NCBI GenBank assembly: GCA_011524395.1
Contig: WTKN01000226.1
Location: forward strand, 1-40,386
Direction of reading: 5' to 3'
Source of the DNA: Moorena sp. SS36440bin_2
GTDB taxonomy: Bacteria; Cyanobacteriota; Cyanobacteriia; Cyanobacteriales; Coleofasciculaceae
DNA length: 40,386 nucleotides
Positions 11,006-36,043 of the stretch are shown piece by piece (within the stretch, counting starts at the first letter, position 1; each line of letters begins with the position of its first letter). The translations under genes were made by a program, and so were the position numbers. The notes under the pieces are model-generated. The model saw only the letters and a list, made by a program, of their open reading frames with translations, did no database searches and was not told the origin of the DNA.

Positions 11006-11060
11006 TATTTATGTATGGTCTCTCTATCTGCCTATTTTATTATCCAAAACTCATATCAAA

Positions 11061-11919: not shown

Positions 11920-13104
11920 TCATATAATTAGCCATAGCGCAAGTCCCCAGAAAGGAATAAATCGAAACCAGCCAATCCTGCTGTTAACTGCCCCTAAAAG
12001 TAAAGCCTGAAAAAGGTAAAAAAGGACTAAATCTACACAGAAAGCTAATGTAAGTCGGTTCGTCATCAATTGCTGCCCAAAATAGTTCATTCTCTCGACC
12101 AAATCTCCAAACTCTGGTCGGCAGAGTACCCCCCAAACTAAGGCAATTATCCCCACTATCATTCCTGTCCAACCAAATACACGAGCTAATATTCCCTTGT
12201 TCGTTTCCTCCTTTACTGGAGGAATTGGTGTATTATAGCGCAGTGCCATATAAGGGGTAAGAACAGCATTGGTTCCGAACATCGCCAGACTCCAAATCAG
12301 AATCTTGGGGAGATGAGTTGTCCTTCTATCGACGAGGAGTAGAGGTAAAAACATGAAAATCCAAGCTTCGGCAAAGTTGAAGAGTGCTTCTAAGGTAGGA
12401 TGAACCACTGGTGCTTCTAAATAATTAATGCCTACTCGGTTCAAAAGGGGTAAAATAAAGAAAAAATTCAGTGATTCATTTACTATTTCTTCTATAGTTT
12501 CTGGTTGAATAGCCCAAGCGGGTTGCCCTGGAATAAGTTGCCCTGGCGGAGATAACAACAGAATGTAAATATAGGCGATCGCTATTAACCCAAATACTAG
12601 AGGAAGAAAGCGTTGACTTTTTGGAATTCCTTGGCCTAAGGGAGAGATTTCCATGGTACTTTTATCTTGCCGATCTTTCAGCAGTTTTCGTATCAGCGGA
12701 GAGACTAGTCGGATGATAAAGAATGCCGCTTTCCCTGGTTTTATGGGGGGTTCAACCAGATCACGGGCTAAAACTAACTTGCCAGTTACCTCAGAACAAC
12801 GATAAAAGCTAACACCTCGTCCGTTGGGAAAGGGAATGCCGTCTAACTCAACGTGCCATAGTATTCCTACTGCCAGGGGATCGCCTTTGGTGATATCATC
12901 AATTACAAATTTTAACTCATCCGGGATACCTTGACAGGATTCTTCCAGAAGTTGTCTGACAGCTTCCTTTCCTTTGAATGGTTGGGAAAAGTTAAGATCC
13001 TCGTAAATACACTGGTCGTCTATCCACTCCATCGCAGCGTTAACATCCCTACGATTGATGGCTTCATAGATGGACTGGATGACATTATGGGCAGGTGTGG
13101 TCAT
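11920..13104 (-). CDS. NTF2-like domain fused to a polytopic membrane domain
   Basis: 394 aa. Residues 1-130 form an NTF2/SnoaL-like cone domain (VIQSIYEAINRRDVNAAMEW, then FKGKEAVRQLLEE and the ISFY-like GRGVSFYRC strand). This domain type covers small-molecule isomerases, lyases and binding proteins. Residues 160-394 hold about six hydrophobic segments (for example FLPLVFGLIAIAYIYILLL, LIWSLAMFGTNAVL, MIVGIIALVWGVL, TLAFCVDLVLFYLFQALLL, ending FWGLALWLII). The membrane half resembles uncharacterised cyanobacterial integral membrane proteins. With no signal peptide before the NTF2 domain, that domain should face the cytoplasm. Stand-alone gene. The substrate is unknown. Confidence 0.75.
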   Translation of the reverse strand: MTTPAHNVIQSIYEAINRRDVNAAMEWIDDQCIYEDLNFSQPFKGKEAVRQLLEESCQGIPDELKFVIDDITKGDPLAVGILWHVELDGIPFPNGRGVSFYRCSEVTGKLVLARDLVEPPIKPGKAAFFIIRLVSPLIRKLLKDRQDKSTMEISPLGQGIPKSQRFLPLVFGLIAIAYIYILLLSPPGQLIPGQPAWAIQPETIEEIVNESLNFFFILPLLNRVGINYLEAPVVHPTLEALFNFAEAWIFMFLPLLLVDRRTTHLPKILIWSLAMFGTNAVLTPYMALRYNTPIPPVKEETNKGILARVFGWTGMIVGIIALVWGVLCRPEFGDLVERMNYFGQQLMTNRLTLAFCVDLVLFYLFQALLLGAVNSRIGWFRFIPFWGLALWLII

Positions 13105-13132
13105 GAGATTTGAAATTTTAGATTTTAGGTAA

Positions 13133-13397
13133 GCATTTAGTGGTAAACCTGCATGGCAGGCATTAACAGAAGCACCTTTCCAAGAATTAAGTGATCAGCA
13201 ATTCTATGATCGCTCTCCGCAGACATACAAAGCATTGCCCTAGTTGTCGGCAATCTCTAGTGTTGATAGATAAACTCAAAGATTATTGTCTAAATTTTAC
13301 CGCAGTCTTGGTAATATTAGTCTTTTTACTAATACTAATTAATCTACAGATAAGACTAGTTTTAATCTCAAGGGGTGACAACAAACCATTAACCTAG
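13133..13397 (+). pseudogene. C-terminal remnant of a Rieske-type PaO-like oxygenase
   Basis: Two overlapping frames together give a recognisable tail. Frame one (13133 onward) reads GKPAWQALTEAPFQELSDQQ then FYDRSP. Frame two continues RRHTKHCPSCRQSLVLIDKL and then a hydrophobic helix (AVLVILVFLLILINL). The HTxxCxSC motif followed by a membrane helix is the C-terminal signature of pheophorbide a oxygenase-like (Lls1-type) Rieske proteins. The Rieske centre, the mononuclear iron domain and any start are absent, and the frames are offset by one shift near 13220. This is a dead relic. The stop lies within a hairpin stem. Confidence 0.6.
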
Positions 13398-13602
13398 GCA
13401 GGTGCTAGGTTAATGGTTTTAGGTGTTGGGTTTAATGAGCGCGACTCGTTTTGTTGTAATTCCGAGCAGTTGAAGCAATTTTCACCAATCCAACTGCATA
13501 GATAGTTTTAATCAACCACTACGCCATGACGATGTTACCTAAAACCTAACCCCTAAAACCTAACCCCTGTAAGATTTTAAAGAGCGCTTGTCACCCCTTG
13601 AG
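13367..13602. repeat. Large nested inverted-repeat region
   Basis: A 15-bp perfect inverted repeat (ctcaaggggtgacaa at 13367-13381, complement at 13588-13602) bounds a 236-bp segment. Inside are a 15-bp-stem hairpin (13383-13419) and a ggttttaggtgttgggttt stretch after it that is roughly complementary to tandem acctaaaacctaacccct units (13538-13568). No protein is encoded beyond the Rieske relic's end. It could be a non-autonomous element or a remnant of one. Confidence 0.55.
13383..13419. terminator. Strong hairpin, terminator-like
   Basis: A 15-bp perfect stem (aaaccattaacctag / ctaggttaatggttt) with a seven-base loop, followed by a short T-run on the plus strand. It overlaps the stop codon of the decayed Rieske fragment and probably served as its terminator. 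Confidence 0.6.
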
Positions 13603-13694
13603 GTAAATATTTATCAGCAGCATTCCCAAAAAAGGTTTACCCGTGGTTGACTTATATGAAAATTAACATCATCACAACATAAACATCATCACAC

Positions 13695-13730
13695 AACAGA
13701 AGAGGCGTTGAATGGAATGCCTCTTCTGTT
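13695..13730 (-). terminator. Hairpin downstream of the molybdenum hydroxylase operon
   Basis: A 12-bp perfect stem (aacagaagaggc / gcctcttctgtt) with a 12-base loop, starting seven bases past the stop of the large subunit on the minus strand. The following minus-strand sequence is only moderately T-rich, so termination may be partial. Confidence 0.65.
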
Positions 13731-13737
13731 ATGTGTG

Positions 13738-15867
13738 TCACAACAACTTATCCGGTGTAATTGGTAAATCACGGATACGTTTACCTGTAGCATGGTAAAT
13801 AGCATTAGCGATCGCAGCCGATACTCCTGTAATCCCAATTTCACCCAAACCCCGCACCCCTGCGGGATTAAAGTTATAGTCGGGTTCCCCTACAAATGTC
13901 ACCTGAATCCGGGGAATATCTGCATGACTGGGATAATGATAGGTGGCCAGGTCGTAAACCACGGGATAGCCAATATTGGGGTCAAAATCACAGGCTTCCA
14001 TCAAGGCGTGCCCAATACCCATAATTACACCACCCCGTATCTGAGACGCTGCAGTTTTGGCATTCATTACTCGCCCAATATTCATCACAGACACCCAACG
14101 GTTGACGCGCAAGCGGGCAATGTCTTCATCTACGCTGACTTCACAAAAATGTGCCCCCCAGGATTGGAATGCCCATTTCTTCCCCTCTTCACCGGCTGCA
14201 GAAGAGGCTGTCGCTTCAAACGCAGCTTGTCCCGACTGATGCAGGGTGGCAAAGGCTTCTTGGGCTGTTGCGGCAAGAGCCGTCTTGAGAACTGCCTCAC
14301 AAGCCGCCATCACTGCTGGTACAAGGGTTGCTGTCATTTGGGAAGCACCCGCCATCCCACCATTTGGCAGTAAGGAGTCTCCCATCTCCACCCGCACCTG
14401 TTCTACAGCTAGCCCCAATACCTCGGCTGCTGTACCTGCAACAATGGTATATGCACCAGTACCCATGTCATTAGCACTAGTGAGGATATGGGCAGTACCA
14501 TCGGCTAACAACCGCACTGTGACTGTAGCTGAACTCCGTAAAGCCGGGAAGGTTGATGCCGCCATGCCCCAACCAATCAGCTTACCATCACGGGTGAGGG
14601 AGCGCACCTGTTTTGGTCGATCTTGCCACCCAAATTGTTGCGCACCCAGCCGCAAACATTCTGCGAAATGCTTGGCAGAGAAAGGTAAACCCCGGCGCTG
14701 GTGTTCCTTAGTTTCATTGTTTAACCGCAGTTCCACTGGGTCTATTTTTAACTCCCACGCCAATTCATCCATGGCTGATTCTAGTGCCCATAACCCCGGA
14801 TTTTCCCCTGGGGCACGCATGAATGCGGGTGTCCCAACGTTCATAACCGCCAATTCCTGACGGGTTCGCAGATTGGGTGCAGCGTACATAACTGGTGTGA
14901 TGCCTGTACAAGGTTCAGTAAAAATATCAACTGGTGAGGTAGAGGATTTAACCCCATGGTCTATGGCCATCAAGCTACCATCAGCATTTGCCCCTAAACC
15001 AATCGTTTGTTCCGTTTCAGACCGGTGTCCGGTGTTGGCGGTCATTTGCCGACGGCTGAGAACAACTTTCAGGGGACGTTGCAGTTGACGGGCGGCTGCT
15101 GCACCAAGAATGGCATGGGGCCAAGGAAAGCCTTTAGAACCAAAGGCTCCACCAATAAAAGGTGTGATAATACGGACTTTTTCTGGGGGAAGTCCAAACA
15201 GGTCTGCATAGGTACGCTGACTACCCATTACCCACTGGGATGGTTCGTAGACAGTCAGGGTGTCTGGATCTTGCCAGTGAGCAATGATAGCATGGGGTTC
15301 CATCGCTGCGTGTAGTTCAGTGGAAGTTGTGTATGTTGCTGTAATCCCGGCTCCTACACCTGCCATGGCACGGGCATTGTCCCCAGCAGCAACATTCCCC
15401 TTCTCAAAGGTCATCTGTTGCCCAAACATGGGTGGAGCTTCGTTAAAGGTAGCTTTGCTGGTTTCTACAATTGGTTCTTGGGTGACGTATTCTACCTTAA
15501 CTAAATGAGCAGCGTGACGTGCCCGTTCAAAGGTATCTGCGACTACCAAACCAACAATTTGCCCTGCATAGTAAATTTGGTCATCTGATAACGGTAGTCG
15601 TGCCTCGTAGATTTTCGAGGTGAAAAAATCGTTAGCTGGTTTAGATACAGTCGGCGGGTTTTTATGGGTGAAAACTGCAATTACCCCTGGTGCTGTTGCT
15701 GCTGCTTGGGTATCAATACTTTTAATCTGCCCATGAGCAATATTAGCAGTCACCAGATAACCATGAACTAAACCGGGAATTTGATGTTCAGCAGCGTAGG
15801 TTGCTGTCCCTGTAACCTTTGCTCGTCCATCCTTGCGGTTAATACTAGTACTAGTTACTTGATTCAT
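13738..15867 (-). CDS. Molybdenum hydroxylase large subunit (PaoC/YagR-type, molybdopterin-binding)
   Basis: 709 aa, normal for PaoC-like subunits. It begins with the small ald_xan_dh_C domain (GRAKVTGTATYAAEHQIPGLV). Cofactor-contacting segments follow: PSQWVMGSQRTYADLFGLPPEKV, PFIGGAFGSKG, and FMRAPGENPGLWALESAMDE. Near the C-terminus VRGLGEIGITGV carries the invariant catalytic glutamate (GxGExG). Enzymes of this class oxidise aldehydes or N-heterocycles with water as oxygen donor; the PaoABC relatives are broad aldehyde oxidoreductases with MCD cofactor. The start overlaps the FAD-subunit stop by ATGA, with aggagg upstream. It is the last gene of the operon. The substrate is not predictable. 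Confidence 0.93.
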   Translation of the reverse strand: MNQVTSTSINRKDGRAKVTGTATYAAEHQIPGLVHGYLVTANIAHGQIKSIDTQAAATAPGVIAVFTHKNPPTVSKPANDFFTSKIYEARLPLSDDQIYYAGQIVGLVVADTFERARHAAHLVKVEYVTQEPIVETSKATFNEAPPMFGQQMTFEKGNVAAGDNARAMAGVGAGITATYTTSTELHAAMEPHAIIAHWQDPDTLTVYEPSQWVMGSQRTYADLFGLPPEKVRIITPFIGGAFGSKGFPWPHAILGAAAARQLQRPLKVVLSRRQMTANTGHRSETEQTIGLGANADGSLMAIDHGVKSSTSPVDIFTEPCTGITPVMYAAPNLRTRQELAVMNVGTPAFMRAPGENPGLWALESAMDELAWELKIDPVELRLNNETKEHQRRGLPFSAKHFAECLRLGAQQFGWQDRPKQVRSLTRDGKLIGWGMAASTFPALRSSATVTVRLLADGTAHILTSANDMGTGAYTIVAGTAAEVLGLAVEQVRVEMGDSLLPNGGMAGASQMTATLVPAVMAACEAVLKTALAATAQEAFATLHQSGQAAFEATASSAAGEEGKKWAFQSWGAHFCEVSVDEDIARLRVNRWVSVMNIGRVMNAKTAASQIRGGVIMGIGHALMEACDFDPNIGYPVVYDLATYHYPSHADIPRIQVTFVGEPDYNFNPAGVRGLGEIGITGVSAAIANAIYHATGKRIRDLPITPDKLL

Positions 15868-16859
15868 GCTACCCCTCCTCCTTGAGCAGAAACCATGAGG
15901 GCGCGACGAATCGCCCGTTTTGCCAGTTCGACTTTATAACTGTTGTGAGTTAAAGGTTTGGCTAAGTCCAAGGCAATTTCTGCAGCCTCGGTAAATGTTG
16001 CTACATCCGCCGACTTACCAATCAAAAACTCTTCTGCTGCTGTTGCTCGCCAAGGCTTGTGTGCTACCCCACCCATTGCCAAACGTGCAGCTTGGATGTG
16101 CTCCCCTTGCAAGTTTACCGCCGCCGCCACAGAAATTAAAGCAAAGGAATAGGAAGCGCGATCGCGTATTTTCAAATAAACCCCAGATTTCCCAAAGGAT
16201 AAGGTCGGCAGAATCACAGCGGTAATTAACTCCCCTGGTTCTAAATTGGTGTCTTGCTCGGGTCTATTTCCCGGTAGACGGTGGAAATCTGTAAACGGTA
16301 TCTGCCTTTGCCCTTGGGCACCTGCTACTTCCACCACCGCATCCAATGCAGCTAGGGCAACACACATATCTGACGGGTGGACTGCTACACACTGCTCGCT
16401 GGCACCAAGGATGGCATGAGCACGGTTAATTCCCGTGATTGCGGGGCAGCCTGTCCCTGGTTGCCGTTTATTACAAGGAAAGGCGGTATCGTAATAATAG
16501 GGACAACGGGTACGTTGCAGCAGGTTTCCCCCCACTGTAGCCATGTTGCGAATTTGCTGAGATGCGCCAGATATAATTGCCCTAGCTAACATGGGATAGT
16601 TGCGGCGAATATCACTATTGTCTGCTACTGCGGTATTACTAACTAGTGCTCCCAGACGCAGACTACCATCAGCCATCGGTTCAATGTTATGCATCTGTAA
16701 CCGAGAGATATCAATCAGTTGCGATGGCTGATCTAAGAATACTTTCAGACGGTCAACTAAATTCGTTCCACCAGCAATAAACATGGAGTTTTGGTCAGCA
16801 ACTGCCTGGTTCACGGCATCTGACACGGAAGTGGCACGGGTATAGGTGAAGTTCTTCAT
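15864..16859 (-). CDS. Molybdenum hydroxylase FAD-binding subunit (PaoB/YagS-type) with extra iron-sulfur cysteines
   Basis: 331 aa, CoxM-like FAD subunit. FAD-binding motifs are MFIAGGTNLVDRLK at the N-terminus and ATVGGNLLQRTRCPYY. The stretch from TRCPYYYDTAFPCNKRQPGTGCPA to ASEQCVAVHPSD contains the four-cysteine insert that binds an additional [4Fe-4S] cluster in E. coli PaoB; ordinary xanthine dehydrogenase FAD subunits lack it. This insert is my main reason for calling the enzyme PaoABC-type rather than xanthine dehydrogenase. Five bases separate it from the 2Fe-2S gene upstream and four bases overlap the large-subunit gene downstream, indicating tight translational coupling. Confidence 0.92.
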   Translation of the reverse strand: MKNFTYTRATSVSDAVNQAVADQNSMFIAGGTNLVDRLKVFLDQPSQLIDISRLQMHNIEPMADGSLRLGALVSNTAVADNSDIRRNYPMLARAIISGASQQIRNMATVGGNLLQRTRCPYYYDTAFPCNKRQPGTGCPAITGINRAHAILGASEQCVAVHPSDMCVALAALDAVVEVAGAQGQRQIPFTDFHRLPGNRPEQDTNLEPGELITAVILPTLSFGKSGVYLKIRDRASYSFALISVAAAVNLQGEHIQAARLAMGGVAHKPWRATAAEEFLIGKSADVATFTEAAEIALDLAKPLTHNSYKVELAKRAIRRALMVSAQGGGVA

Positions 16860-16864
16860 GATGC

Positions 16865-17425
16865 TTAGTTATTTCCAGATTCACTGACCATCACCGCTGC
16901 CACAGGGTATGGTGGTTTTTGTCCAATTACCTGCTGTACGGCTGCCACAATACCATTGTAAGCACTGCATCGGCAAAGATTCCCACTCAGTCGTTCCTTA
17001 ATTTCCGCCTCGGAGAGTTCAGCTAGTTGTGGAGGACTATGCAAATCTGGTGTCACCGCGCTAACACAACCCCGTTTAACTTCCTCCAAAAGAGCCACAG
17101 AAGCGCAAATTTGCCCTGGGGTACAATAGCCGCATTGGAAGCCATCATTGTCAATAAATGCCTCCTGCACCGGATGGAGAGTATCCCCTGTTGCCAAACC
17201 TTCAACGGTAACAATTTCCTTACCTTCTTGCATGACTGCCAAAGTGAGACAGGAATAAACTCGCTGACCATCAATTAAAACAGTACAGGCTCCACATTGT
17301 CCATGATCGCACCCCTTTTTACTCCCGACTAATCCCAAATATTCACGCAGAGCATCTAGGAGTGTTACACGGGGTTCAATGGTGAGGATGTGCTGTTCAC
17401 CATTAATGGTAAGAGTCACATTCAT
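16865..17425 (-). CDS. Molybdenum hydroxylase 2Fe-2S subunit (PaoA/YagT-type)
   Basis: 186 aa. The plant-type ferredoxin centre is GSKKGCDHGQCGACTVLIDG with the fourth cysteine in YSCLTLA. The second cluster lies in the helical domain at CGYCTPGQICAS and GNLCRCSAYNGIV. It passes electrons from the molybdenum centre to the FAD subunit. E. coli PaoA carries a Tat signal; none is present here, so this enzyme is probably cytoplasmic. The ATG overlaps the stop of an upstream gene (ATGA at 17425-17422), and its aggagg Shine-Dalgarno lies inside that gene. The upstream gene, now cut by a TnpB element, was therefore once part of this operon. Confidence 0.93.
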   Translation of the reverse strand: MNVTLTINGEQHILTIEPRVTLLDALREYLGLVGSKKGCDHGQCGACTVLIDGQRVYSCLTLAVMQEGKEIVTVEGLATGDTLHPVQEAFIDNDGFQCGYCTPGQICASVALLEEVKRGCVSAVTPDLHSPPQLAELSEAEIKERLSGNLCRCSAYNGIVAAVQQVIGQKPPYPVAAVMVSESGNN

Positions 17426-17535: not shown

Positions 17536-17680
17536 CATTAAAACAGCTACATTGACACTCCCCGTCCTATAAGAACGGGGATTCTTTAATCAACGAGTCA
17601 GCGTGGCTCTTCCAGACCGGAATCAGGAAGAGTAGAGGCTGATTCTCCTAAAGCGTTCGGATCTAAGATCCAGGTTCCGG
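17536..17680 (-). ncRNA. Predicted omega RNA (reRNA) of the TnpB element
   Basis: In characterised TnpB elements the guide RNA overlaps the 3' end of tnpB, includes the right-end hairpin and ends in a guide copied from flanking host DNA. By analogy the scaffold here would end with the hairpin at 17560-17580. The guide would start at 17551 (tgtagctgttttaatga on the minus strand) and the target-adjacent motif would be TTGAC. The boundaries are inferred, not seen. Confidence 0.35.
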
Positions 17681-18779
17681 TATGCCCTACCGTACCTAAG
17701 GCTCTTTTCAGAATATTGATCGCAGCATTATGGTCTCTGTCTAATTCACAACCACACTCACAGATATGGGTTCTGGTTGATAAAGACTTTTTGACTACTT
17801 CGCCACAATTTGAACAATTTTGACTGGTATAGTCAGGATTGACTGCTACTGTCTGCCTACAAAATTTTTGCCCAAAATACTCTAACCACTTTCTGAATTG
17901 ATACCAACCCGCATCATTAATAGATTTAGCAAGACAATGGTTTTTTGTTAGATTTTTAATCCTCAAGTCTTCGTAAGCGACCACATCGTTAGAGTGGATT
18001 ACGCAACGTGCCAGTCTCTTGGCATGTTCTTCACGCTGCCTACTTATTTTGAGGTGTGTCCTACCTAGCCTATTTCTGGCTTTTTTACGATTGGATGAGC
18101 CTTTCTTCTTGCGAGAAACTCGACGTTGATAGAATTTCAACCGCTTCTCGCCCTTACGATAAAATCTTGGGTTTGGTTCTGTACCTCCTTTAGAGTCGGT
18201 ATAAAATTCCTTCAATCCCACATCTAAACCAATATTGGTATGAGAGGGATCCAGGGGTTCTTCTATATTGACTTTCACGCAGAATTGAACATAATAACCA
18301 TCGGCGCGGCGAACCAACCTAACTCGTTTGATCAGTTTTTGGTCGTAACGCCATAATTCCCAAGTTCCTTTAAGTTTTAGCTTCCCTATACCCTTTTTAT
18401 CAATAAAGGAGATTGACTTGGTATCGGGGGAAAGCTTCCAGCCAGATGTTTTATATTCGACTGATCTAGAAAACTTTTTGAACTTGGGGTAACCTTTTTT
18501 CCCAGGGATTTGTTTTTTGCAGTTGCTATAAAACCTAGAAATTGAATTATAGGCTCGCTCCACGGAAGCTTGACAAGCATGAGAGTTCAAGTCTTTGACA
18601 AAAGGAAACTCAGATCTAAGCCACGTGTTATAGCGATAAAGGTCTTTTTGTCCTACGCCTTTGTTTTCCATCCAATATCGAAGACACTTGTTGCGTACAA
18701 ACTGACCCGTCCTTATCGCTTCATCGATGGCGGTGTATTGAGTTTTATTCCCTTTGACCTTAAACTCTAGAGCGATCAT
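17598..18779 (-). CDS. tnpB: TnpB, RNA-guided RuvC nuclease of IS605-type element
   Basis: 393 aa, full length. The RuvC-like catalytic residues are in place: D186 (IGLDVGLKEF), E270 (VAYEDLRIKNL) and the aspartate of DRDHNAA (347-353). A four-cysteine zinc ribbon (NCSNCG at 321-326, CECGC at 340-344) sits between the last two. The N-terminal wedge/REC half begins MIALEFKVKGNKTQ and carries the helical KGYPKFKKF segment. TnpB cuts DNA next to the target-adjacent motif under guidance of an element-encoded RNA and helps keep the element after excision. No stops or frameshifts, so it is probably active. The C-terminal 40 residues past NILKRAL are variable. Confidence 0.95.
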   Translation of the reverse strand: MIALEFKVKGNKTQYTAIDEAIRTGQFVRNKCLRYWMENKGVGQKDLYRYNTWLRSEFPFVKDLNSHACQASVERAYNSISRFYSNCKKQIPGKKGYPKFKKFSRSVEYKTSGWKLSPDTKSISFIDKKGIGKLKLKGTWELWRYDQKLIKRVRLVRRADGYYVQFCVKVNIEEPLDPSHTNIGLDVGLKEFYTDSKGGTEPNPRFYRKGEKRLKFYQRRVSRKKKGSSNRKKARNRLGRTHLKISRQREEHAKRLARCVIHSNDVVAYEDLRIKNLTKNHCLAKSINDAGWYQFRKWLEYFGQKFCRQTVAVNPDYTSQNCSNCGEVVKKSLSTRTHICECGCELDRDHNAAINILKRALGTVGHTGTWILDPNALGESASTLPDSGLEEPR

Positions 18780-24742: not shown

Positions 24743-27700
24743 ATGAAACTGATCAAACGCACTACGCTCCATTATCAAGCTGATAACTCAGATAAAATCT
24801 ACGAAGTCGATCTGTGTGATCTCGGTAACGAGCAGTATATCGTTAACTTCCGCTATGGACGCCGTGGCAAGACCTTGAAAGAAAGTTCAAAAACTGCTCA
24901 GCCGGTAGCTTTGGCTAAAGCACAACAAGTCTTTGATCAGTTAGTTGGCTCAAAACTCAAGAAAGGCTATCAAGATGTAACTGAGCCATCAAATAGTGAG
25001 ACTCAAGAAGAGGTTAATGACTTAACTACTAGTAACGTAGTTACCAAGGACCCACGCCATCAAGCCATTCTCAACGCGATCGCCTTTGGCGCGGCTGAGG
25101 CCTTTGGCCACGCTACGCGAACGCGAAGCGTCGGCTTTGCCGAAACGCCGATCGCTTTTGGCACGGCAGAGCCGAACGCAAATCCAGATAGTAGTAAAGG
25201 CTCTAGTAAATGGTCCCAAACCCGAGCGATCTGGCGGGCTGGAGAATTGAAAATTCGTGAAGCTACGCCCTTAATTATCCCCCTGATTGGGACTGATCAA
25301 CCCTTAAAAGACTACTGCATTGCTTGGGCTTTAGGATGGTGTGGTGATCAGCATGTAATTCCTCACCTCCAACGCTTGTATGAAACCCCTTCAACTCCAG
25401 ACTTTGTCAAGGGGATTGCTTGGGAAGCCTGGATGAAACTCTGTGATCCATCAACTCAAGAACGGTTGCGCTCTCAACAGATAGAGCAATTGCCTGCCGA
25501 ATTGCAATCCCATATCGAAACCGATAATCCTGCTCAGTTCTCTAATGCCCTACTTACCTATCTAGACAGTAACGACTATACTCGTTTTGGTGTCCTCGAT
25601 ACCCTATATCAAATTAATAATGCTCAAGTGCGTCCAGCACTACTAAATATCTTACGCACTGCTCCCCTACGCCCCAACTACTTCAAAGCCATTCGCCACA
25701 TATTCAAGATTGCCGAATATCGACAAGATGCCCAAGTATTTTGCATTATCGCCTACCGCCTAGACACCGAGCCACCAATGTTTCGTCAGTCTTATTGGCA
25801 TAAATATTACTGGGACAGAAATAGTCGCAAATATCTTCCCCGTGCCAATTACCTCGGTAGTCCTGATGCTAAACGGGCTTACAGCAACGTAACTCGTGAC
25901 TATCTACGGCGGCGGGTATGGCGGACTCTCAGGAAATTGGGTGAAGAATGGGATTGCAATTACATAAATCTAGCCCTAGAAGTATTACTCCAATATTCTG
26001 ATTCTGATGGGGTGCCCGCCAGAACATCAACCTTGTATCGCTGGAACTACTCCAACTGGACTCGCACCAGCTACACTCGCAACTGGGACAGCTATGCCGG
26101 TTACTTAACCTTTAACCATATTCTCTATACCAATAGTCCCCGTTACCTATTAATGCCCAACAACCAGGCATGGCGTTGTCGAGACAACTACAAACCCGGT
26201 GATCCAGAACCAGATGTCCGAGAAGAAGCCTTTCCTAAACTTTGGGAGCAACATCCAGAGGCACTGCTACAGTTACTATTACAAAGCCACTGTCATCAAG
26301 TTCATCAGTTTGCCGCCAAAGCCTTGAAAGTATGTCAGTCATTCTGTAATCAAATCGATACAGAGACTGTAATCAGACTAGTTAACAAACCCTACCCAGT
26401 AACCGCTCAACTCGGCTTTGAACTAGCAACACAAAAATATAATTCCGATAATCCAGAGAATCCTAACCTAGACTTATTACTTGCCTTAGCTAACTGCCAA
26501 TTTCCACCAGCTCGTACTCAAGCCCATCAGTGGATACAAGCAATACCAACTCACTTGATTACCGCCAGCCAGCTGATACTCCCTTTAGTGATCAGTCAAC
26601 ACTCTGATACCCGTACCTTTGCCCGTCAGTTACTGACTCAATCAATAATAAGTGAAGCAACAGCCAAAGTATTAATTGGGCAAATTATTGTAGCAGTACT
26701 CGCACTAGAACCAACTCAAACCGATATCGCCAAAGACACTGCTCAAAGCCTGCTTCTAGGTTTTACCCCCCAACTCAGGAAATTGGGTATGGGAGTAGTA
26801 CTAGATCTGCTCCAACACCCCATGCCAGAAATCCAGGAATTGGGAGCAAGAATCCTATTCAATCACGAAACTCCTGCCGCTGACTTACCACCTAAATTAA
26901 TTGAATCACTCCTCAACGCTTCCCATCAGTCAGTGCAAGGGATTGGGGTTCATATTTTCGGTAAACTTCCCGATCAACGGTTGCTACAAGACTACGACTT
27001 AGTATTAGCGATCGCAACCAATCAACAAGCACACTTGCGTCAAGGTATTCGTCCAGTAATTCAGCGCTTAGGACAATTATATCCAGAATTTGGAACTCAG
27101 CTAGCCACAGAAATCATTACCCTATTGCAGCTACCAGAAAGACATGAAGGTGTTCACAAAGATTTAGTTCAACTGCTACGAGAAGACTTACCCAGCTGGA
27201 TGACTAGCATTACCAAAGACAACGCCATGGAACTTCTCCAAGCCAAATCATCAGCCGCTCAAGAATTAGTAGGATTAGTACTCCAAGCTAACTATACCAC
27301 TTGGGGATTAGAATTAGAAATTCCTGACATTGTAAAACTAGCCAATCATGAAATCCTATCCGTCCGTCAAGCCGCTTGGGCAATGATTGAGCAAAGGCTC
27401 AACCGTATCCGTAGCAATTCTCAAGACATGTTAGCCGCAGTGCAATTACTAGAAGCAAAATGGCAGGATTCCAGAGAATTTGCTACCAAACTGTTTAGCC
27501 AACAAATTACCGAACAAGACTGGACACCTGAAGTCATGGTCAGTATTTGTGACAGTACTCGGGATGATGTTCGTCAATTTGGGCGGGATTTAGTCCTACG
27601 TACCTTTCAGCAGAGTTATGGTCAAGATTATCTCCTCAAATTTAGTGAACATCCCAGTCAAGACATGCAGCTATTTGCCACTAACTATCTAGAACAGTAT

Positions 27701-27997
27701 GCCGTAGATAATCCCGACCGTTTGCAAAACTTAATCCCTTACTTTATCAGTATTTTGTCTCGGGTTAATCGCGGACGAATTGCTAAACAGCGCGTCTTCG
27801 CATTTCTAGAAGCTGAATCAAGAAAAAGCCAAGCAGCTGCTAAAATAGTAGCAGAAATATTAACACAACAATCCATCACAATGGCTATTGGTGATAAAGC
27901 CCGTTCAATTCATATCATGCTTCAAATTTACCAAAACTATCCTAGTATTTCTCTTCCTATTAACGTTAAACCAGTATCTGAAGTAAGAGGAATGTAG
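24743..27997 (+). CDS. Giant WGR-domain protein with helical repeats
   Basis: 1,084 aa. Residues 1-80 are a WGR domain (KRTTLHYQADNSDKIYEV, NFRYGRRGKT), a nucleic-acid-associated fold known from PARPs. The rest is alpha-helical and looks like HEAT-type repeats (DYCIAWALGWCGDQHVIPHL; LKVCQSFCN; FARQLLTQS; LEAKWQDSREFATKLF). No enzymatic motif is seen. Between the WGR domain and the repeats, residues 111-146 come from an inserted dispersed DNA repeat and read like low-complexity sequence (IAFGAAEAFGHATRTRSV). A central aromatic- and arginine-rich block (about 360-470) is unusual. The SWIM protein gene follows on the same strand, 302 bp away. Such WGR and SWIM proteins are, from memory, neighbours of MoxR/vWA conflict systems; none is present here. 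Confidence 0.8.
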   Translation: MKLIKRTTLHYQADNSDKIYEVDLCDLGNEQYIVNFRYGRRGKTLKESSKTAQPVALAKAQQVFDQLVGSKLKKGYQDVTEPSNSETQEEVNDLTTSNVVTKDPRHQAILNAIAFGAAEAFGHATRTRSVGFAETPIAFGTAEPNANPDSSKGSSKWSQTRAIWRAGELKIREATPLIIPLIGTDQPLKDYCIAWALGWCGDQHVIPHLQRLYETPSTPDFVKGIAWEAWMKLCDPSTQERLRSQQIEQLPAELQSHIETDNPAQFSNALLTYLDSNDYTRFGVLDTLYQINNAQVRPALLNILRTAPLRPNYFKAIRHIFKIAEYRQDAQVFCIIAYRLDTEPPMFRQSYWHKYYWDRNSRKYLPRANYLGSPDAKRAYSNVTRDYLRRRVWRTLRKLGEEWDCNYINLALEVLLQYSDSDGVPARTSTLYRWNYSNWTRTSYTRNWDSYAGYLTFNHILYTNSPRYLLMPNNQAWRCRDNYKPGDPEPDVREEAFPKLWEQHPEALLQLLLQSHCHQVHQFAAKALKVCQSFCNQIDTETVIRLVNKPYPVTAQLGFELATQKYNSDNPENPNLDLLLALANCQFPPARTQAHQWIQAIPTHLITASQLILPLVISQHSDTRTFARQLLTQSIISEATAKVLIGQIIVAVLALEPTQTDIAKDTAQSLLLGFTPQLRKLGMGVVLDLLQHPMPEIQELGARILFNHETPAADLPPKLIESLLNASHQSVQGIGVHIFGKLPDQRLLQDYDLVLAIATNQQAHLRQGIRPVIQRLGQLYPEFGTQLATEIITLLQLPERHEGVHKDLVQLLREDLPSWMTSITKDNAMELLQAKSSAAQELVGLVLQANYTTWGLELEIPDIVKLANHEILSVRQAAWAMIEQRLNRIRSNSQDMLAAVQLLEAKWQDSREFATKLFSQQITEQDWTPEVMVSICDSTRDDVRQFGRDLVLRTFQQSYGQDYLLKFSEHPSQDMQLFATNYLEQYAVDNPDRLQNLIPYFISILSRVNRGRIAKQRVFAFLEAESRKSQAAAKIVAEILTQQSITMAIGDKARSIHIMLQIYQNYPSISLPINVKPVSEVRGM
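25075..25180. repeat. Dispersed repeat inserted in frame in the WGR gene
   Basis: About 106 bp rich in GC palindromes: gcgatcgcctttggc, ggcctttggccacgctacgc, gaacgcgaagcgtc, ccgatcgcttttggc. The same ggcctttggcc/cgctacgc words occur in intergenic repeats here (1523-1572; a related ttggcctacggccaa near 18861). The insertion keeps the frame and adds roughly 36 residues to the protein. Confidence 0.75.
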
Positions 27998-28020
27998 GGA
28001 TTTATCAATTGTGGATTGTC

Positions 28021-28055
28021 GGGAATAGGGAGTCGGGAGTCGGGAGTCGGGAGTC
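28021..28055. repeat. Tandem heptamer repeat (gggagtc)
   Basis: Five heptamers in a row: one gggaata, then four gggagtc. A typical cyanobacterial short tandem repeat (STRR) after the WGR gene. Confidence 0.85.
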
Positions 28056-28186
28056 GGTAGTAGCGATAGTATGAGAAACCCTATAGCATTTTCAAATATA
28101 TCCTGATAGCTCATTAAACAAAATACTGATTCAGGATAACACCAAAAACTAGTATTATCTATTTCCATTATCTATTTCATAATTTT

Positions 28187-28259
28187 CCCGATTCCCAATT
28201 CCCGATTCCCGATTCCCGATTCCCGATTCCCGATTCCCAATTCCCGATTCCCGATTCCC
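28187..28259. repeat. Tandem heptamer repeat (cccgatt)
   Basis: Ten heptamers, eight cccgatt and two cccaatt, ending about 40 bp before the SWIM-protein start. It is complementary in type to the gggaatc tract at 37892-37943 and partly to the gggagtc tract upstream, so the 28021-28259 region can fold back on itself. Confidence 0.92.
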
Positions 28260-28299
28260 TTATTAAGAATTAAAAAAATACTTCAACACCCTAAAAAAT

Positions 28300-29940
28300 A
28301 TGGAATTTAACTACGCCTATAAAACTAGTACAGCAGTTAGCGATCGCGGCAGCAGCACCCAAATGTCTTTCTCCCCAGACACCAAGCGTCCTCCCACTTA
28401 CTTCATTGGTGAATTAGGGAAAAATGTAGCCTTTCGAGAAGCCATCAGTGCCCTACATGACGTAGTAGTTTCCGATTTACGCTTCAAACCCAAAGACAGA
28501 ACTGAGTATAAACAATGGCGTGCTAACCAAGACCAACAAGACTGGCAACTTATAGCTGCACAACGCCAAGACCTCGCCAATAAAATTCACCCCTTACAAG
28601 CAGAACTAACTCAATTAAATCAGAACCGATATCAACGATTATCCACCTTTTATAAAGCCAGACAACAGTACTACAATTATCTCTATCAGAAAGACCGTGA
28701 TGCCTGGTTTGTCCTCGATCCAGTAATTACTGTTCATCCCGATGAAGTCTTTTTTGAATGTTTCAGCCAAGATGAATCCAGTTATGGCCGACTAGGAGCC
28801 AGCTACGAAGTCTTTAAAACTATCAGCGAATTCGCCTGCGGTACAACCAACATAGACTACTCCGCCGCCCTTTACAACGAATTTCAAAAAATCCGCAGTT
28901 ACAAGACAACCCAATTTGAAATTGACCCCTCCGGTTTTGAAGTCAAAACCACCCATGAAGCAGCATTTAAAGAAGTCAAAATTGACCTACCAGACAGTTG
29001 GGTAAGAGGATTTCTACAAGTCAGTTCCGCCATGGCCTTACCGGCCACAACCTTTGACTTGCAGCCGATGGATATTCACAATATCTGTTTTGTGTTGCGT
29101 CGCCACAAAGAAAAAACTGGCCCACGGGGAATGCGTTACCATCTCAAACCAGGAGAACCCGTGCGAATAGTATTTGAGCCTTGGAACATCGACATAGTCT
29201 GTTCGCGATCGCCCTATCAAGGTTCATCAGAACAGGTCATCCGAGTTTGGGGACGCCGCCGCCTCCACATCCTAGAACGTCTTATCCCCATTGCCAACAA
29301 ATTTAGCATTCACCTACTCGGAACCGGTATGCCATCCTTTTATGTAGCTGACTTGGGGGATATGTCCTTTACCCTCGGCTTATCAGGATGGACAGCTAAC
29401 GATTGGTCTCAAGCTGGGAACTTTGACTTAATGGCACCCCGTGCAGATGTAGACCAGTGGACCCAACAACTCATTTTTGACGCACTCAGAGAAAACTGGG
29501 TAGAAAGTCCCCACAGTCTCGCCCAGCGCTTAGACTTAAGTCCTACTGCTGTCCTAGGTGCCTTAGGAGCTTACACCCAAGCCGGACGAGCCATGTACGA
29601 CTTAAACAAGCAAGTATATCGAGTCCGGGAACTCTCCCGAGAGCCCTTACCCATGGAACGGTTACGGTTTGCCAATCAGCGAGAAGAAACAGCAACCCGC
29701 TTCTTAAGTAACAATGCCGTAGAAGTAACCTCAATAAACGACACTCAAGGTACACTCCAGCTACAGGGAAATGTCAGAGATAAAAGCAAAACCTATAATC
29801 CCGTTTTGACAATTGATCGTGATGAACGTATAATAGCGGCAGAGTGTACCTGTAATTGGTATCAGCAAAATAAGCTGTACAAAGGTCCTTGTGAACACAT
29901 ACTGGCGTTGCGGATGCAGCACGCTCGTCAGTATCAATAA
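28300..29940 (+). CDS. SWIM zinc-finger family protein
   Basis: 546 aa. A C-terminal SWIM finger is complete: C516 and C518 (ECTC), C531 and H533 (CEHI), the CxCx(n)CxH pattern of this zinc-binding fold that contacts DNA or proteins. The finger is preceded by a beta-rich stretch (TYNPVLTIDRDERIIAAEC). The middle (about 390-450) looks like a winged helix (LIFDALRENW, SLAQRLDLSPTAVLGALGAY). The N-terminal half is specific to this family and not recognised otherwise. No enzymatic motif is seen. It lies 302 bp after the WGR gene on the same strand, across the heptamer repeats. WGR and SWIM proteins are typical genomic partners, suggesting joint action. Confidence 0.85.
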   Translation: MEFNYAYKTSTAVSDRGSSTQMSFSPDTKRPPTYFIGELGKNVAFREAISALHDVVVSDLRFKPKDRTEYKQWRANQDQQDWQLIAAQRQDLANKIHPLQAELTQLNQNRYQRLSTFYKARQQYYNYLYQKDRDAWFVLDPVITVHPDEVFFECFSQDESSYGRLGASYEVFKTISEFACGTTNIDYSAALYNEFQKIRSYKTTQFEIDPSGFEVKTTHEAAFKEVKIDLPDSWVRGFLQVSSAMALPATTFDLQPMDIHNICFVLRRHKEKTGPRGMRYHLKPGEPVRIVFEPWNIDIVCSRSPYQGSSEQVIRVWGRRRLHILERLIPIANKFSIHLLGTGMPSFYVADLGDMSFTLGLSGWTANDWSQAGNFDLMAPRADVDQWTQQLIFDALRENWVESPHSLAQRLDLSPTAVLGALGAYTQAGRAMYDLNKQVYRVRELSREPLPMERLRFANQREETATRFLSNNAVEVTSINDTQGTLQLQGNVRDKSKTYNPVLTIDRDERIIAAECTCNWYQQNKLYKGPCEHILALRMQHARQYQ

Positions 29941-32416: not shown

Positions 32417-34477
32417 ATGCTTACTGGCTCAATGTTACTAAAAATAATCACAATCTTTACCGCAATGGTAATGAGTGTACTTTTATTAAAATCCGATTTA
32501 TACAATAGATTTAACCCTGAGCAATCTTACGCCACAGCAAATAACTACCAGACCAAACAAAACAAAAGTATAAATAAAATTGAATTTGGCCAGACTAAAG
32601 ATGGTCAAAACGTTGATCTCTATACTTTAACCAATACCAATGGTTTAGTAGTTAAGATAACCAACTATGGTGCTACTCTTACTGAATTACACTTGCCTGA
32701 CAACAGCGGTAAGCTAGATGATGTAGTGCTGGGATTTGATAGTCTAGAAGGTTATTTGACCGCTAAGCACTACCTATATTATGGTGCAATTGTTGGTCGC
32801 GTCGCTAATCGAATTAAAGATGCTCAGTTCACTCTCAATGGTCAAAGGTATGATCTAGCTGCTAATGCCGGTTCCCATCACATACATGGTGGTAAAAAAG
32901 GTTTTGACAAAGTAGTTTGGAAAGCTGAACCGATTAACAGTAGCCAAGGACAGGCACTAAAACTAACTTATCTGAGTCCTGACACAGAAGAAGGATATCC
33001 AGGTGATTTAAAAGTTACAGCTATTTACACTCTGACTAACGATAATGAGTTAAAGCTGGAAATGACTGCTACCACTAACAAACCTACTCCTGTCAACTTG
33101 GTGAATCATTCATATTGGAACTTGGCTGGCCATAGTTCTGGGAATATTCTAGGACAATATTTAACGATCAATGCCGATAGATATACGCCTAACAACGAAC
33201 AGCGCATCCCTACAGGAGAGATTAAATCAGTTAAAAATACACCCTACGACTTTACTCAGACTCAGTTGATTGGAGATGGAATTAATCAGCTTAGAAATAC
33301 CCTAAAGCAAAACTATCCAGGAGGTTACGACCTCAATTATGTTTTGAATGGAGAATCAGAAAAAATTAAACTCGCAGCTACTGTATATGAACCAAAATCA
33401 GGTCGAGTGATGGAGCTTCACACGAATCAGCCAGGAATGCAGTTTTTTTCGGGAAATATTCCTAACCTTAGAACTGTGGGTAAAGGAGATGTTGTTTATA
33501 CAAATCATCAAGGTTTGTGCTTAGAGACACAACATTTTCCTGACTCAGTCAATCAGCCTAACTTTCCTTCGATTATCTTGAATCCAGGTGAAAATTACCG
33601 ACACCTAATGGTTTATAAATTTTACACCAAACAAAATAATCTAGGAAAAATTATTGCTCCCAATACTCAAGTTGAAAAGGTAGCAGGAGCTTTTAAGTTT
33701 ACTGAAGGACCTGTTTGGCATCCCGACGGCTTTCTGCTATTTAGTGATATTCCAGCTAATACCATTTATAAATGGCAACCAGAGCAGAAAACCGAGATTT
33801 TTCGTCAACCTTCTGGCAATGCTAATGGTAATACCTTAGACCGCTCAGGGCGTTTAGTTACTGCCGAACATAGTAATCGTCGTCTATCCCTAACACAGAA
33901 AGATGGAAAAATCGTAACTCTAGCTAGTCACTACCAAGGCAAGCGGCTGAATAGTCCCAACGATCTAGCAGTCAAATCAGATGGTAGCATCTATTTTACC
34001 GATCCTCCCTATGGCATCAAATCCGAACAAGAAGAATTAGGCTTTTATGGTGTTTATCGCCTAGCACCAGATGGAACACTAACCCTGCTAGTTGATGACT
34101 TTGTTCGCCCTAATGGTATTGTTTTTTCCCCAGATGAAACTAAATTATATGTGAATGATTCACAAAGAGGTCATATTCGGGTTTTTGATGTCAAGCCAGA
34201 CGGGATATTAGAGAATGGAAAACTTTTTGCGGAACTGAAACCTCCTAGTAAAGAGGGTGCAGCAGATGGTATGAAGGTAGATATCCAAGGAAATGTTTAC
34301 AGTACTGGACCAGGAGGAGTTTGGATTTTTGATCCTAGTGGCAACCTACTGGGAATTATTGAAGTGCCAGAAGCCCCTGCTAATTTAGCCTGGGGTGATA
34401 GTGACTACCAAACCCTTTACATTACAGCAAGAAACAGTCTTTATCGTATCCGTATTAAGATTAAAGGGATGCCCTAG
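32417..34477 (+). CDS. Exported fusion of aldose 1-epimerase and SMP-30/gluconolactonase
   Basis: 686 aa, two enzymes in one chain. A hydrophobic N-terminus (LLKIITIFTAMVMSVLLL) is a signal peptide or anchor, so the domains should lie outside the cytoplasmic membrane. Residues 53-405 are a galactose mutarotase: NYGATLTELHLPD, GRVANRI, HIHGGKKGFDKVVW, the catalytic histidine in VNHSYWNL (H231) and catalytic glutamate in LETQHFPDS (E370). Residues 418-686 are an SMP-30-type beta-propeller lactonase: E430 in FTEGPVWHPDG, then NSPNDLAV, FTDPPYG and RPNGIVFSPDETKLYVND supply the metal ligands. The fusion could interconvert sugar anomers and open sugar lactones. A sugar dehydrogenase gene converges on it 87 bp away. 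ATG 32432 is an alternative start. Confidence 0.9.
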   Translation: MLTGSMLLKIITIFTAMVMSVLLLKSDLYNRFNPEQSYATANNYQTKQNKSINKIEFGQTKDGQNVDLYTLTNTNGLVVKITNYGATLTELHLPDNSGKLDDVVLGFDSLEGYLTAKHYLYYGAIVGRVANRIKDAQFTLNGQRYDLAANAGSHHIHGGKKGFDKVVWKAEPINSSQGQALKLTYLSPDTEEGYPGDLKVTAIYTLTNDNELKLEMTATTNKPTPVNLVNHSYWNLAGHSSGNILGQYLTINADRYTPNNEQRIPTGEIKSVKNTPYDFTQTQLIGDGINQLRNTLKQNYPGGYDLNYVLNGESEKIKLAATVYEPKSGRVMELHTNQPGMQFFSGNIPNLRTVGKGDVVYTNHQGLCLETQHFPDSVNQPNFPSIILNPGENYRHLMVYKFYTKQNNLGKIIAPNTQVEKVAGAFKFTEGPVWHPDGFLLFSDIPANTIYKWQPEQKTEIFRQPSGNANGNTLDRSGRLVTAEHSNRRLSLTQKDGKIVTLASHYQGKRLNSPNDLAVKSDGSIYFTDPPYGIKSEQEELGFYGVYRLAPDGTLTLLVDDFVRPNGIVFSPDETKLYVNDSQRGHIRVFDVKPDGILENGKLFAELKPPSKEGAADGMKVDIQGNVYSTGPGGVWIFDPSGNLLGIIEVPEAPANLAWGDSDYQTLYITARNSLYRIRIKIKGMP

Positions 34478-34564
34478 AAAGTTATAGAAATTATCCTGGA
34501 TTAATCAGATGTTCGGTTTTATCCTTCAACCTAACCTACAATAAGGTGAATTCCATAACCATCA

Positions 34565-36043
34565 TTATTCCAAACTATTCTGGTCAATAGGGGATTTTGG
34601 TGAACGAACGAGTTTCCTAACTTTACCATCTTGTTTTGATGTCACATAGATTTCTCCTTCTTCATCCACCCCGAATCGCACATCAGAGCGTTTTTTTCCA
34701 ATGATTTCCAGAACAGAAGCGTCTTGCTCTCCGTCAAAGAGTCTGAGTTCTTTTATTTTTGCCTGTTTGCCATCGACAAGTTCATCTACAGGAACGTGGA
34801 AAAATCTGGCATCATGAGCGAAGTCAGCAAAAATGTATTGACCGATTAATTCAGGAATTGCTTTGCCCCGATAAACATAACCACCAGCGATCGCAATTCC
34901 ATAGAAGCCTTTTATGTCGGGGGGGATGTCATGGTCATATTGGGCAACGGGATAAGTATAGCCATAGGAGCGATCGTTTTTGGGTAATGCAAACAAAACA
35001 TTTTCATTATTTTCCTCTATAACCCAAGTACCTTCCCCCTCGCCCCAACCATAGTTAGCTCCTTTGATACCAAGATTAACTTCTTCAATAAAAGCCTGAC
35101 CAGTATCAGCAATCAACATTTTGCCTTCGCCACCAGTATCCCAGCTAAAACGATGGGGATTACGCAGTCCATAAGCCCAGATTTCACCCAAGGTTTTAGG
35201 CTCTTCATCTGTAACAAAAGGATTATCACGAGGAATACCATATTGACCATTAACACTATTATTGCCAAAGGGATCGATTCTGAGAATTTTGCCCAGGGGT
35301 GTTCCTAGATTCTGTCCATTATCCAAGGGATCGGTATCGCTAACAGGGTAGCCATCACTACCGCCATCAGCTACTGCAATGTAGAGCAAGCCATAATCAT
35401 CATCCCCTGGTTTAGCATTGGGATTAAAGCCCAATTGTCCAACATTATGATCTGGGTAAGGCTCTTCAATGCGCAAAATCTCACGGAATGTTCCGACAAA
35501 AGTATTGCTAGAAGGGTTTGTTGCCTTCCACTCGCGAATTACATCGTGGTGGGCACTTTCGATAATGTTATTGTTACTGTCAATAATTGATTTGGTAACG
35601 GGGAAGTCAGGAGTACCGCCAGTTTTAACTTCGCTAGTTACAGTATAAAAAATTCCATTCTGAGCAAATTCTGGATGAAAAGCAAAATAAGCGAAGCCCT
35701 GTTGAGGAGTTTCATAGGTAAAGTCTGCACAAATTAGTTTTTTCAGATTCATATAAACAGTAGCAGTGCCGTCAACAATGACATACAACTTGCCACGCAT
35801 ATCGTTAACAAATAATCTTCCGCTACCATCTCCTGCATTGGTAAGCAGGTTCAAGCGAGGAGCTTTCTTTCTTCCAGTTCCACTATTGGGAATTTGAACA
35901 ACTTCTTCCAATCCGACAGAGAGTTTTGACTTTTTAATTGGCTCGGGAATGGGATCGGTTATCTGAGCAGAAGAAATGCTGCCAACAGCAAAGATGACCA
36001 AGAAGAGGGACAATATAAAACAGAGAAGGCGAAATTTATTCAT
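34565..36043 (-). CDS. Exported PQQ-type sugar dehydrogenase (glucose/sorbosone dehydrogenase family)
   Basis: 492 aa. Residues 1-26 form a signal peptide (FRLLCFILSLFLVIFAVG, cleavage near SSA-Q). The six-bladed propeller starts around residue 43 with NLLTNAGDGSGRLFVNDMRGKLYV. Family motifs are the active-site histidine H199 in DHNVGQLGFNP, the calcium/PQQ region YIAVADGGSDG, GTPLGKILRIDPFG, and the cofactor-contacting R294 in YGLRNPHRFSWD. Members oxidise aldoses to lactones with PQQ. No PQQ synthesis gene is in the window, so the cofactor would have to be scavenged or made elsewhere; human and plant HIPL relatives show that the fold can also lose activity. It converges with the mutarotase-lactonase gene. 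Confidence 0.88.
   Translation of the reverse strand: MNKFRLLCFILSLFLVIFAVGSISSAQITDPIPEPIKKSKLSVGLEEVVQIPNSGTGRKKAPRLNLLTNAGDGSGRLFVNDMRGKLYVIVDGTATVYMNLKKLICADFTYETPQQGFAYFAFHPEFAQNGIFYTVTSEVKTGGTPDFPVTKSIIDSNNNIIESAHHDVIREWKATNPSSNTFVGTFREILRIEEPYPDHNVGQLGFNPNAKPGDDDYGLLYIAVADGGSDGYPVSDTDPLDNGQNLGTPLGKILRIDPFGNNSVNGQYGIPRDNPFVTDEEPKTLGEIWAYGLRNPHRFSWDTGGEGKMLIADTGQAFIEEVNLGIKGANYGWGEGEGTWVIEENNENVLFALPKNDRSYGYTYPVAQYDHDIPPDIKGFYGIAIAGGYVYRGKAIPELIGQYIFADFAHDARFFHVPVDELVDGKQAKIKELRLFDGEQDASVLEIIGKKRSDVRFGVDEEGEIYVTSKQDGKVRKLVRSPKSPIDQNSLE

Follow-up and report, generated by a model that had tools for sequence, protein, structure and literature searches.

A recurrent mutarotase-lactonase fusion beside a divergent dehydrogenase homologue suggests a module for sugar oxidation outside the cytoplasm of cyanobacteria

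Analysis of a 40,386-nucleotide stretch of DNA from the cyanobacterium Moorena sp. SS36440bin_2 (assembly GCA_011524395.1, contig WTKN01000226.1; the whole stretch is referred to as the window) revealed a gene in which an aldose 1-epimerase (mutarotase) is fused to a gluconolactonase-like SGL domain, converging with the gene of a divergent homologue of the GSDH dehydrogenase family (PF07995). We give a probability of roughly 50% to the reading that both proteins form an exported module for the C1-oxidation of sugars, the genomic support appearing good for the dehydrogenase-lactonase core and the support for the role of the mutarotase fair. The combination of GSDH, SGL, and mutarotase can be regarded as a variant, rare but recurrent and conserved, of a pathway whose kind is already known. 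The association of the fusion with GSDH exceeds chance, as it recurs in four genomes of the genus, in a Pleurocapsa metagenome-assembled genome (MAG), and, in divergent orientation, in Nostoc. A module of mutarotase, dehydrogenase, and lactonase is best supported because the epimerase and a second, DUF4380-type protein exchange for each other at GSDH-SGL loci. If true, these cyanobacteria, including the natural-product producer Moorena, would oxidise sugars outside the cytoplasm. The label of a complete module, as used in the original prediction, nevertheless seems too strong.

The fusion gene and its converging neighbour

The features of the locus are as follows.

32417..34477, plus strand: mutarotase-lactonase fusion of 686 amino acids (aa), with a hydrophobic N-terminus (~9-24), a Leloir-type aldose 1-epimerase, a linker (~402-427), and an SMP-30/gluconolactonase propeller
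32567..33631, plus strand: aldose 1-epimerase domain (galactose mutarotase, Leloir type), residues 51-405, with R132, H157, H231, D305, and E370
33632..34474, plus strand: SGL (gluconolactonase-like) domain, residues 406-686, with the calcium-ligand positions E430, N515, N566, and D617
34478..34564, no strand: intergenic spacer of 87 bp between the convergent genes
34565..36043, minus strand: GSDH (PF07995)-like dehydrogenase homologue of 492 aa, belonging to a divergent subfamily, with a signal-peptide-like start

Both the predicted fusion and its converging neighbour, 87 bp apart, were confirmed by open reading frames and Pfam domains. PF01263 (Aldose_epim) spans residues 67-401 of the fusion (E 5.7e-93, 312 bits at a cut-off of 27) and PF08450 (SGL) residues 428-671 (E 2.2e-52, 178.6 bits at a cut-off of 26.3). 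The epimerase passed the PRK11055 model (296.6 vs 240) and missed the galM_Leloir equivalog cut-off (322.7 vs 397.65); among solved structures, the fusion best matched 1snz, an aldose 1-epimerase, together with gluconolactonases that are exported or putative. The claim that catalytic residues are present in each domain held for the two fused domains and in part for the neighbour, in which His199 and Arg294-Asn295 were recovered but not the full set of ligands for pyrroloquinoline quinone (PQQ) and calcium. The expected arginine, two histidines, aspartate, and glutamate of the epimerase, presumably its catalytic residues, were all found. The SGL domain holds a complete Glu-Asn-Asn-Asp set, which corresponds to the SGL calcium-ligand pattern in the relevant passages of PMC12362111.

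The 492-aa protein reached about 75-78 bits (77.7) on PF07995 (cut-off 25) and only 29.8 on the NCBIfam model non_repeat_PQQ (cut-off 434.55). At E 0.001, PF07995 was the sole dehydrogenase family of Pfam matching it, the presence of an AA12 model in the library being unchecked. Export, predicted for both proteins, is consistent with their hydrophobic N-termini; judged by the hydrophobic stretch, the dehydrogenase homologue begins like a signal peptide, and the start of the fusion resembles a signal anchor more than a signal peptide. Because the two genes converge they do not form an operon, and this reading was rejected. A simple scan of 34400-34650 revealed no promoter-like or terminator-like site.

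Distribution, linkage, and exchange of the parts

A pattern-based scan of one genome each from 84,980 species, of which the best 80 matches were kept, yielded 79 loci. Six of these were full-length fusions, all cyanobacterial, and the nearest named matches among the best 80 were Moorena species (94%); since the scan was pattern based and limited to these matches, divergent fusions may be missed. Within the 388 genomes of the class, a full fusion was found, among the matches listed, in the host genome only (7.75 Mb, 99.87% complete). As the class scan scored at most three first-look candidates per genome, the epimerase was searched again alone, and the Leloir type appeared in two of the 388 genomes, namely the host and G191, where 53 residues of it remain next to a GSDH gene. 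A search of 20 genomes of the family added one further fusion of the same genus (G421). Searches combined, intact fusions are present in eight cyanobacterial genomes: the host, M. bouillonii, G421, Moorena SIO3I8, Symploca SIO2C1, the Pleurocapsa MAG, SU2, and Nostoc LEGE 12450. Because their coordinates match, G388/G420, G389/G422, and G390/G414 were each counted as one genome; the fusion alignment excludes L049 (stop codon by coordinates) as well as L055, L064, and L103 (frames unchecked). None of 1138 matching plasmid records covered 80% of the fusion.

Rather than occurring widely without the dehydrogenase, the fusion was accompanied in all eight genomes by a GSDH homologue of the same subfamily as the 492-aa protein (window-type GSDH), adjacent to it in six, and the proposed linkage was thereby borne out. 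The neighbour is convergent in all four genomes of the genus searched and in the Pleurocapsa MAG. The Nostoc pair is divergent and carries a frame break in its GSDH copy, which may be a sequencing error because the contig name gives a low coverage. Among GSDH-SGL neighbours in general, convergent, divergent, and same-strand orders were seen. In the family, GSDH or a fragment of it was present in eight of the nine genomes with a close SGL (at least 70%), the exception being G415 with only a distant match; ten of the eleven genomes without a close SGL had no GSDH, and G426 held tiny remnants, with the GSDH remnant beside that of SGL. In G412 and G413, GSDH is gone along with SGL but for a remnant. 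Altogether, 16 distinct window-type GSDH loci lie within 4 kb of SGL and three do not (Symploca, SU2, Xenococcus). In G191 the GSDH gene stands beside the epimerase remnant only; a 36-residue fragment in G393 and a 52% homologue of G331 are outside this count. Outside the cyanobacteria, three of 63 matching plasmid records were examined and none was linked. Viral copies of the dehydrogenase were rejected, none of 64 pattern matches being confirmed. As an observation in its own right, the window-type GSDH of SU2 (L169:2668-4926) carries a long C-terminal extension; an H-type lectin in it was dismissed at 15.7 bits, below the cut-off of 24.

The 16 loci at which a window-type GSDH, as a gene or a fragment, lies less than 4 kb from SGL were tallied by manual count with duplicates removed. 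A fused epimerase was found in six, an epimerase stub in one (Nostoc locus B), a DUF4380-type protein in seven, neither in two (G256, at a contig edge, and G409, with short flanks), and both in none. Seven of the ten pairs without a full epimerase adjoin, or in one case are fused to, a protein resembling DUF4380 and the "TTE1925 mutarotase"; these are Calothrix PCC 7716 (GSDH fragment), Calothrix FI2-JRJ7, two Scytonema loci, G217, G410, and G411. Neither an epimerase nor a DUF4380-type protein occurred at any of the 14 GSDH-free cyanobacterial SGL loci flanked by at least 2.3 kb on both sides. Not entered in this second tally were loci whose flank on one side fell short of 2.3 kb, loci with the fusion, repeated entries, the pseudogene of M. 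bouillonii, the second SGL copies of L051 and L083, which lie close to the same module, and L057, a locus from Acidobacteriota. The sequences show that one of two kinds of mutarotase-type protein is added to the GSDH-SGL core, and the originally proposed three-step idea gains support from this replacement.

The DUF4380-type proteins have ~330 aa and, where complete, a hydrophobic start as judged by eye. A DUF4380 match over the cut-off was obtained for three of six proteins scanned, and all three proteins scanned with the NCBIfam model TTE1925 mutarotase (NF052227) matched it, far under its cut-off, with E 1e-10 to 5e-18. In G411 (L208:2751-5066), the window-type GSDH itself carries a DUF4380/TTE1925-mutarotase-like domain at its C-terminus in a 772-aa frame; G410 has a stop codon between both parts, and in G426 the DUF4380-type domain persists with the GSDH and SGL remnants. 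Of the two Scytonema modules, one (L083:8760-10088) has an RRXRR/HNH endonuclease gene between the SGL and DUF4380-type genes and the other (L051) is uninterrupted.

In a phylogenetic tree, the fusion epimerases form one clade in respect to the sampled galM proteins (support 99/94; the row L167 of this tree, mislabelled galM, is the same locus as L036). In the SGL tree, genes of Xenococcus, Hyella, and G331 that encode SGL without an epimerase nest within the clade (100/96) that groups the fusions other than that of Nostoc; of the seven intact fusions in the tree, this clade holds six, with moderate inner support, and the Nostoc fusion lies outside of it. This nesting makes repeated loss of the epimerase probable, as the simplest but not the sole reading of the SGL tree. 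A second fusion copy of M. bouillonii (L031:3647-4955) has lost most of its epimerase, is interrupted in SGL by a frame break, and is a pseudogene; in Nostoc locus B the epimerase is deleted in frame beside an intact GSDH; and in G412 and G413 the epimerase is found alone as an intact open reading frame (430 and 403 aa), with no GSDH and, of SGL, nothing or a remnant of 37 residues. The epimerase is accordingly the dispensable part, with GSDH and SGL as the conserved core.

Ratios of nonsynonymous to synonymous substitution rates (dN/dS) in comparison to the window were 0.06-0.15 for SGL, 0.20-0.41 for GSDH, and 0.12-0.28 for the epimerase in five of six comparisons (0.56 for M. bouillonii), i.e., below 0.6 in all and below 0.3 in most comparisons. 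Among the stand-alone epimerases of G412 and G413 and that of Symploca, values of 0.12-0.14 were obtained. Of 18 genomes searched, 17 (all except G256), among them the seven fusion genomes covered, encode a further, separate aldose epimerase of ~300 aa; the fused domain is therefore not the only mutarotase of the cell.

Cofactor site and pqq genes

Residues were compared by alignment across 14 window-type GSDH sequences and in solved enzymes. His199, Arg294-Asn295, and the motif NYGW are invariant throughout; H199 and R294-N295 are the equivalents of the catalytic His144 and Arg228-Asn229 of soluble glucose dehydrogenase (sGDH). In contrast, the motif R-x-R-[DE]-V of the solved enzymes is changed to [K/E/Q/N]-R-[S/T]-D. 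The R-x-R in register, kept in all five solved enzymes compared and in the enzyme of G211, appeared in none of the 14 sequences, and the Arg406/Arg408 pair holding PQQ in the solved enzymes is represented by K451-R452-S453 in the window protein, with Arg452 being invariant. The Gly-Pro calcium loop is Gly-Gln in the window family (G315-Q316 in the window) and Gly-Ser in G211. The Lys377 column never holds Lys or Arg (A409 in the window protein), yet this lysine is not universal in the solved relatives either, being missing in the 7cdy chain, and the G211 enzyme lacks it too. Thus, the assignment of the neighbour as a PQQ-type aldose dehydrogenase stood with respect to PF07995, the histidine, the Arg-Asn pair, and NYGW, and failed with respect to Gly-Pro, Lys377, and the paired arginines. 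The known PQQ site has likely been lost, and the loss of PQQ-binding residues, which had been named as evidence against the prediction, was in part encountered, as far as an alignment can tell. It does not imply a loss of PQQ itself, because fungal AA12 enzymes, according to passages of PMC6881789, bind PQQ via another residue set without a Lys377 equivalent.

The suggested check for pqq genes came out negative. The search covered pqqC and pqqE, not pqqA, B, or D, with G211, G394, and G396 as positive controls, and revealed neither a match for pqqC nor one over the cut-off for pqqE in any of the seven fusion genomes tested (G421 being outside the test set). The host genome had no pqqC match at E 0.001 and four pqqE matches, all below the cut-off; production of PQQ by the host is not supported. 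Among 14 tested genomes that carry a window-type GSDH, whole or as a fragment, two had both genes over the cut-off, one of these two holding only a fragment; Calothrix FI2-JRJ7 has an intact window-type GSDH together with pqqC and pqqE. Within the class, pqqC exceeded the cut-off in one of 388 genomes. In G211 (L149:8516-12761), the genes immediately after that of an ordinary aldose dehydrogenase are a pqqB-like one (by eye), pqqC, and pqqE. The fusion genomes Pleurocapsa and SU2 hold canonical aldose dehydrogenases without pqqC or pqqE over the cut-off, and for this reason the missing pqq genes leave room for the use of external PQQ. No canonical enzyme was found in the three genomes of the genus Moorena tested, in Symploca, or in Nostoc.

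Proposed pathway, rival explanations, and known systems

In the proposed pathway, the epimerase domain would interconvert the alpha and beta anomers of an aldose. The GSDH-like propeller would then oxidise one anomer at C1 to the lactone, with His199 as base and an acceptor taking up the electrons, and the SGL domain would open the lactone to the aldonic acid, pulling the oxidation forward. Judged by their families, mutarotation, C1 oxidation, and lactone opening would all take place outside the cytoplasm. The mutarotase-type part is, by sequence, added in two ways, either as a Leloir epimerase fused to the lactonase or as a DUF4380/TTE1925-type protein that adjoins the dehydrogenase or is fused to it. 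If PQQ is the cofactor, the tested fusion genomes would have to obtain it from outside, and its binding site would be an altered one.

Several observations weigh against this pathway. Window-type GSDH members reach 61-93 bits on PF07995, compared with 427-442 bits for seven canonical aldose dehydrogenases of the genomes searched (427 for the G211 enzyme encoded beside a cyanobacterial pqqC and pqqE), and they stand apart from these in the tree with a branch length of 2.0. The top solved-structure matches of the 492-aa protein are hedgehog-interacting protein, a non-enzyme, and only then aldose/glucose dehydrogenases. GSDH lies away from the fusion in Symploca (86%) and SU2 (63%) and not beside SGL in Xenococcus, and around the plasmid-borne GSDH relatives of Spirosoma, Runella, and Deinococcus no genes of this kind are annotated. 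Several relatives have lost the epimerase by deletion and two keep it on its own, and its catalytic Asp is replaced by Asn in the Nostoc fusion L036. The name of the DUF4380-type proteins as mutarotases rests on NCBIfam matches far under the cut-off (41-65 vs 550 bits), and a profile comparison with small alignments gave no significant match to the epimerase; homology between both is unsupported by this comparison.

These points feed into rival explanations. The epimerase may be a passenger galactose mutarotase, perhaps horizontally gained, that became fused to an exported lactonase without any connection to the dehydrogenase function. Its rarity in the class (two genomes, one with a remnant), the single clade of fusion epimerases, the probable repeated loss, the in-frame deletion in Nostoc locus B, and the solitary copies of G412 and G413 would fit such a history; we nonetheless regard it as rather unlikely in view of the low dN/dS of the epimerase, extending to the stand-alone copies and Symploca, and of a second mutarotase-type family occupying the same place in other lineages. 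Similarly, the GSDH homologue may be a non-dehydrogenase binding propeller comparable to hedgehog-interacting protein, with SGL acting on another ester or lactone. Besides the structure matches, the altered PQQ clamp agrees with this, as do the varying substrates of SGL proteins, the SOD-SGL of Deinococcus radiodurans cleaving 2-coumaranone and barely speeding the opening of gluconolactone in the passages of PMC12362111. The invariant catalytic His and Arg-Asn and the association of two kinds of mutarotase-type protein with GSDH make this explanation unlikely.

A further alternative is a conventional PQQ-dependent aldose dehydrogenase module supplied with PQQ by neighbouring bacteria, the divergent residues representing a variant of the PQQ site. 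We hold it to be a real, if tentative, possibility. The retained His, Arg-Asn, and NYGW, the invariant Arg452, and the gene combination of Calothrix FI2-JRJ7 are in line with it, and neither AA12 (PMC6881789, as far as its passages go) nor 7cdy nor the G211 enzyme, encoded beside pqqC and pqqE, has a Lys377 equivalent; an external source of PQQ is also proposed for Microcoleus in the passages of PMC7367855. The changed R-x-R-[DE]-V, the replacement of Gly-Pro (Gly-Ser in G211) by Gly-Gln, and the scarcity of pqqC and pqqE (two of 14 genomes, one with a GSDH fragment only) speak against it. A more far-reaching idea, to which we attach only a small probability, is that the dehydrogenase subfamily has abandoned the known mode of PQQ use, relying on another cofactor or a new PQQ site, and that the mutarotase, drawn from two families, is interchangeable and can be welded to either lactonase or dehydrogenase in an extracytoplasmic aldose oxidation of cyanobacteria.

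Should the exported C1-oxidation module be real, its cofactor would be vitamin-like and obtained from neighbours, or held in an unrecognised cofactor site, and the fusion and exchange of the mutarotase would provide genomic evidence for anomer conversion limiting such oxidations. The automatic label "PQQ-dependent sugar dehydrogenase" would call for caution, as it includes proteins without the known PQQ clamp.

Compared with known systems, the window protein shares the PF07995 propeller, catalytic His, Arg-Asn, and NYGW with E. coli YliI (2G8S), the P. aerophilum enzyme (3A9G), and sGDH (1C9U), but differs from them by the changed Gly-Pro loop, Lys377, and Arg406/Arg408 and by its separate long-branch clade. 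The gluconolactonases 3DR2 (Xanthomonas XC5397) and 3E5Z have the SGL propeller and the four calcium-ligand positions in common with the fusion and are not known to be fused to an epimerase. In the sulfo-Entner-Doudoroff system, which is intracellular and NAD-linked, a lactonase step follows the sugar dehydrogenase. Its sulfoquinovose mutarotase clusters likewise group a mutarotase of the aldose-epimerase family with a sugar dehydrogenase, yet with sulfoquinovose as substrate (passages of PMC5902678). The D. radiodurans SOD-SGL fusion, located in a predicted operon with glucose dehydrogenase, also joins an SGL lactonase to another domain beside such an enzyme; according to the passages of PMC12362111, its partner is a Cu/Zn superoxide dismutase (SOD) instead of a mutarotase, and its lactonase activity was measured on 2-coumaranone. 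The fusion itself was not described in titles or abstract openings of the open-access literature searched, in keeping with the claim that no cyanobacterial pathway of this form had been reported; a related idea nevertheless exists for Microcoleus. There, a cyanobacterial gene for a PQQ sugar dehydrogenase occurs without an own pqq operon, PQQ being expected from neighbouring bacteria, but the enzyme is of the 2-ketoglucose dehydrogenase type and discussed for phosphate solubilisation, the proteins were undetected, and the passages of PMC7367855 do not mention a mutarotase or lactonase.

Elsewhere in the window, genes of a three-subunit molybdenum hydroxylase (13738-17425) share their strand with XdhC-type and MobA-type genes (6733-8588), possibly forming an aldehyde or purine oxidase cluster (6733-17425). 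A large HEAT/WGR protein is followed on the same strand by a SWIM zinc-finger protein (24743-29940), and mobile elements are represented by a reverse transcriptase (77-1489) and an IS605 OrfB/TnpB-type open reading frame (17598-18779).

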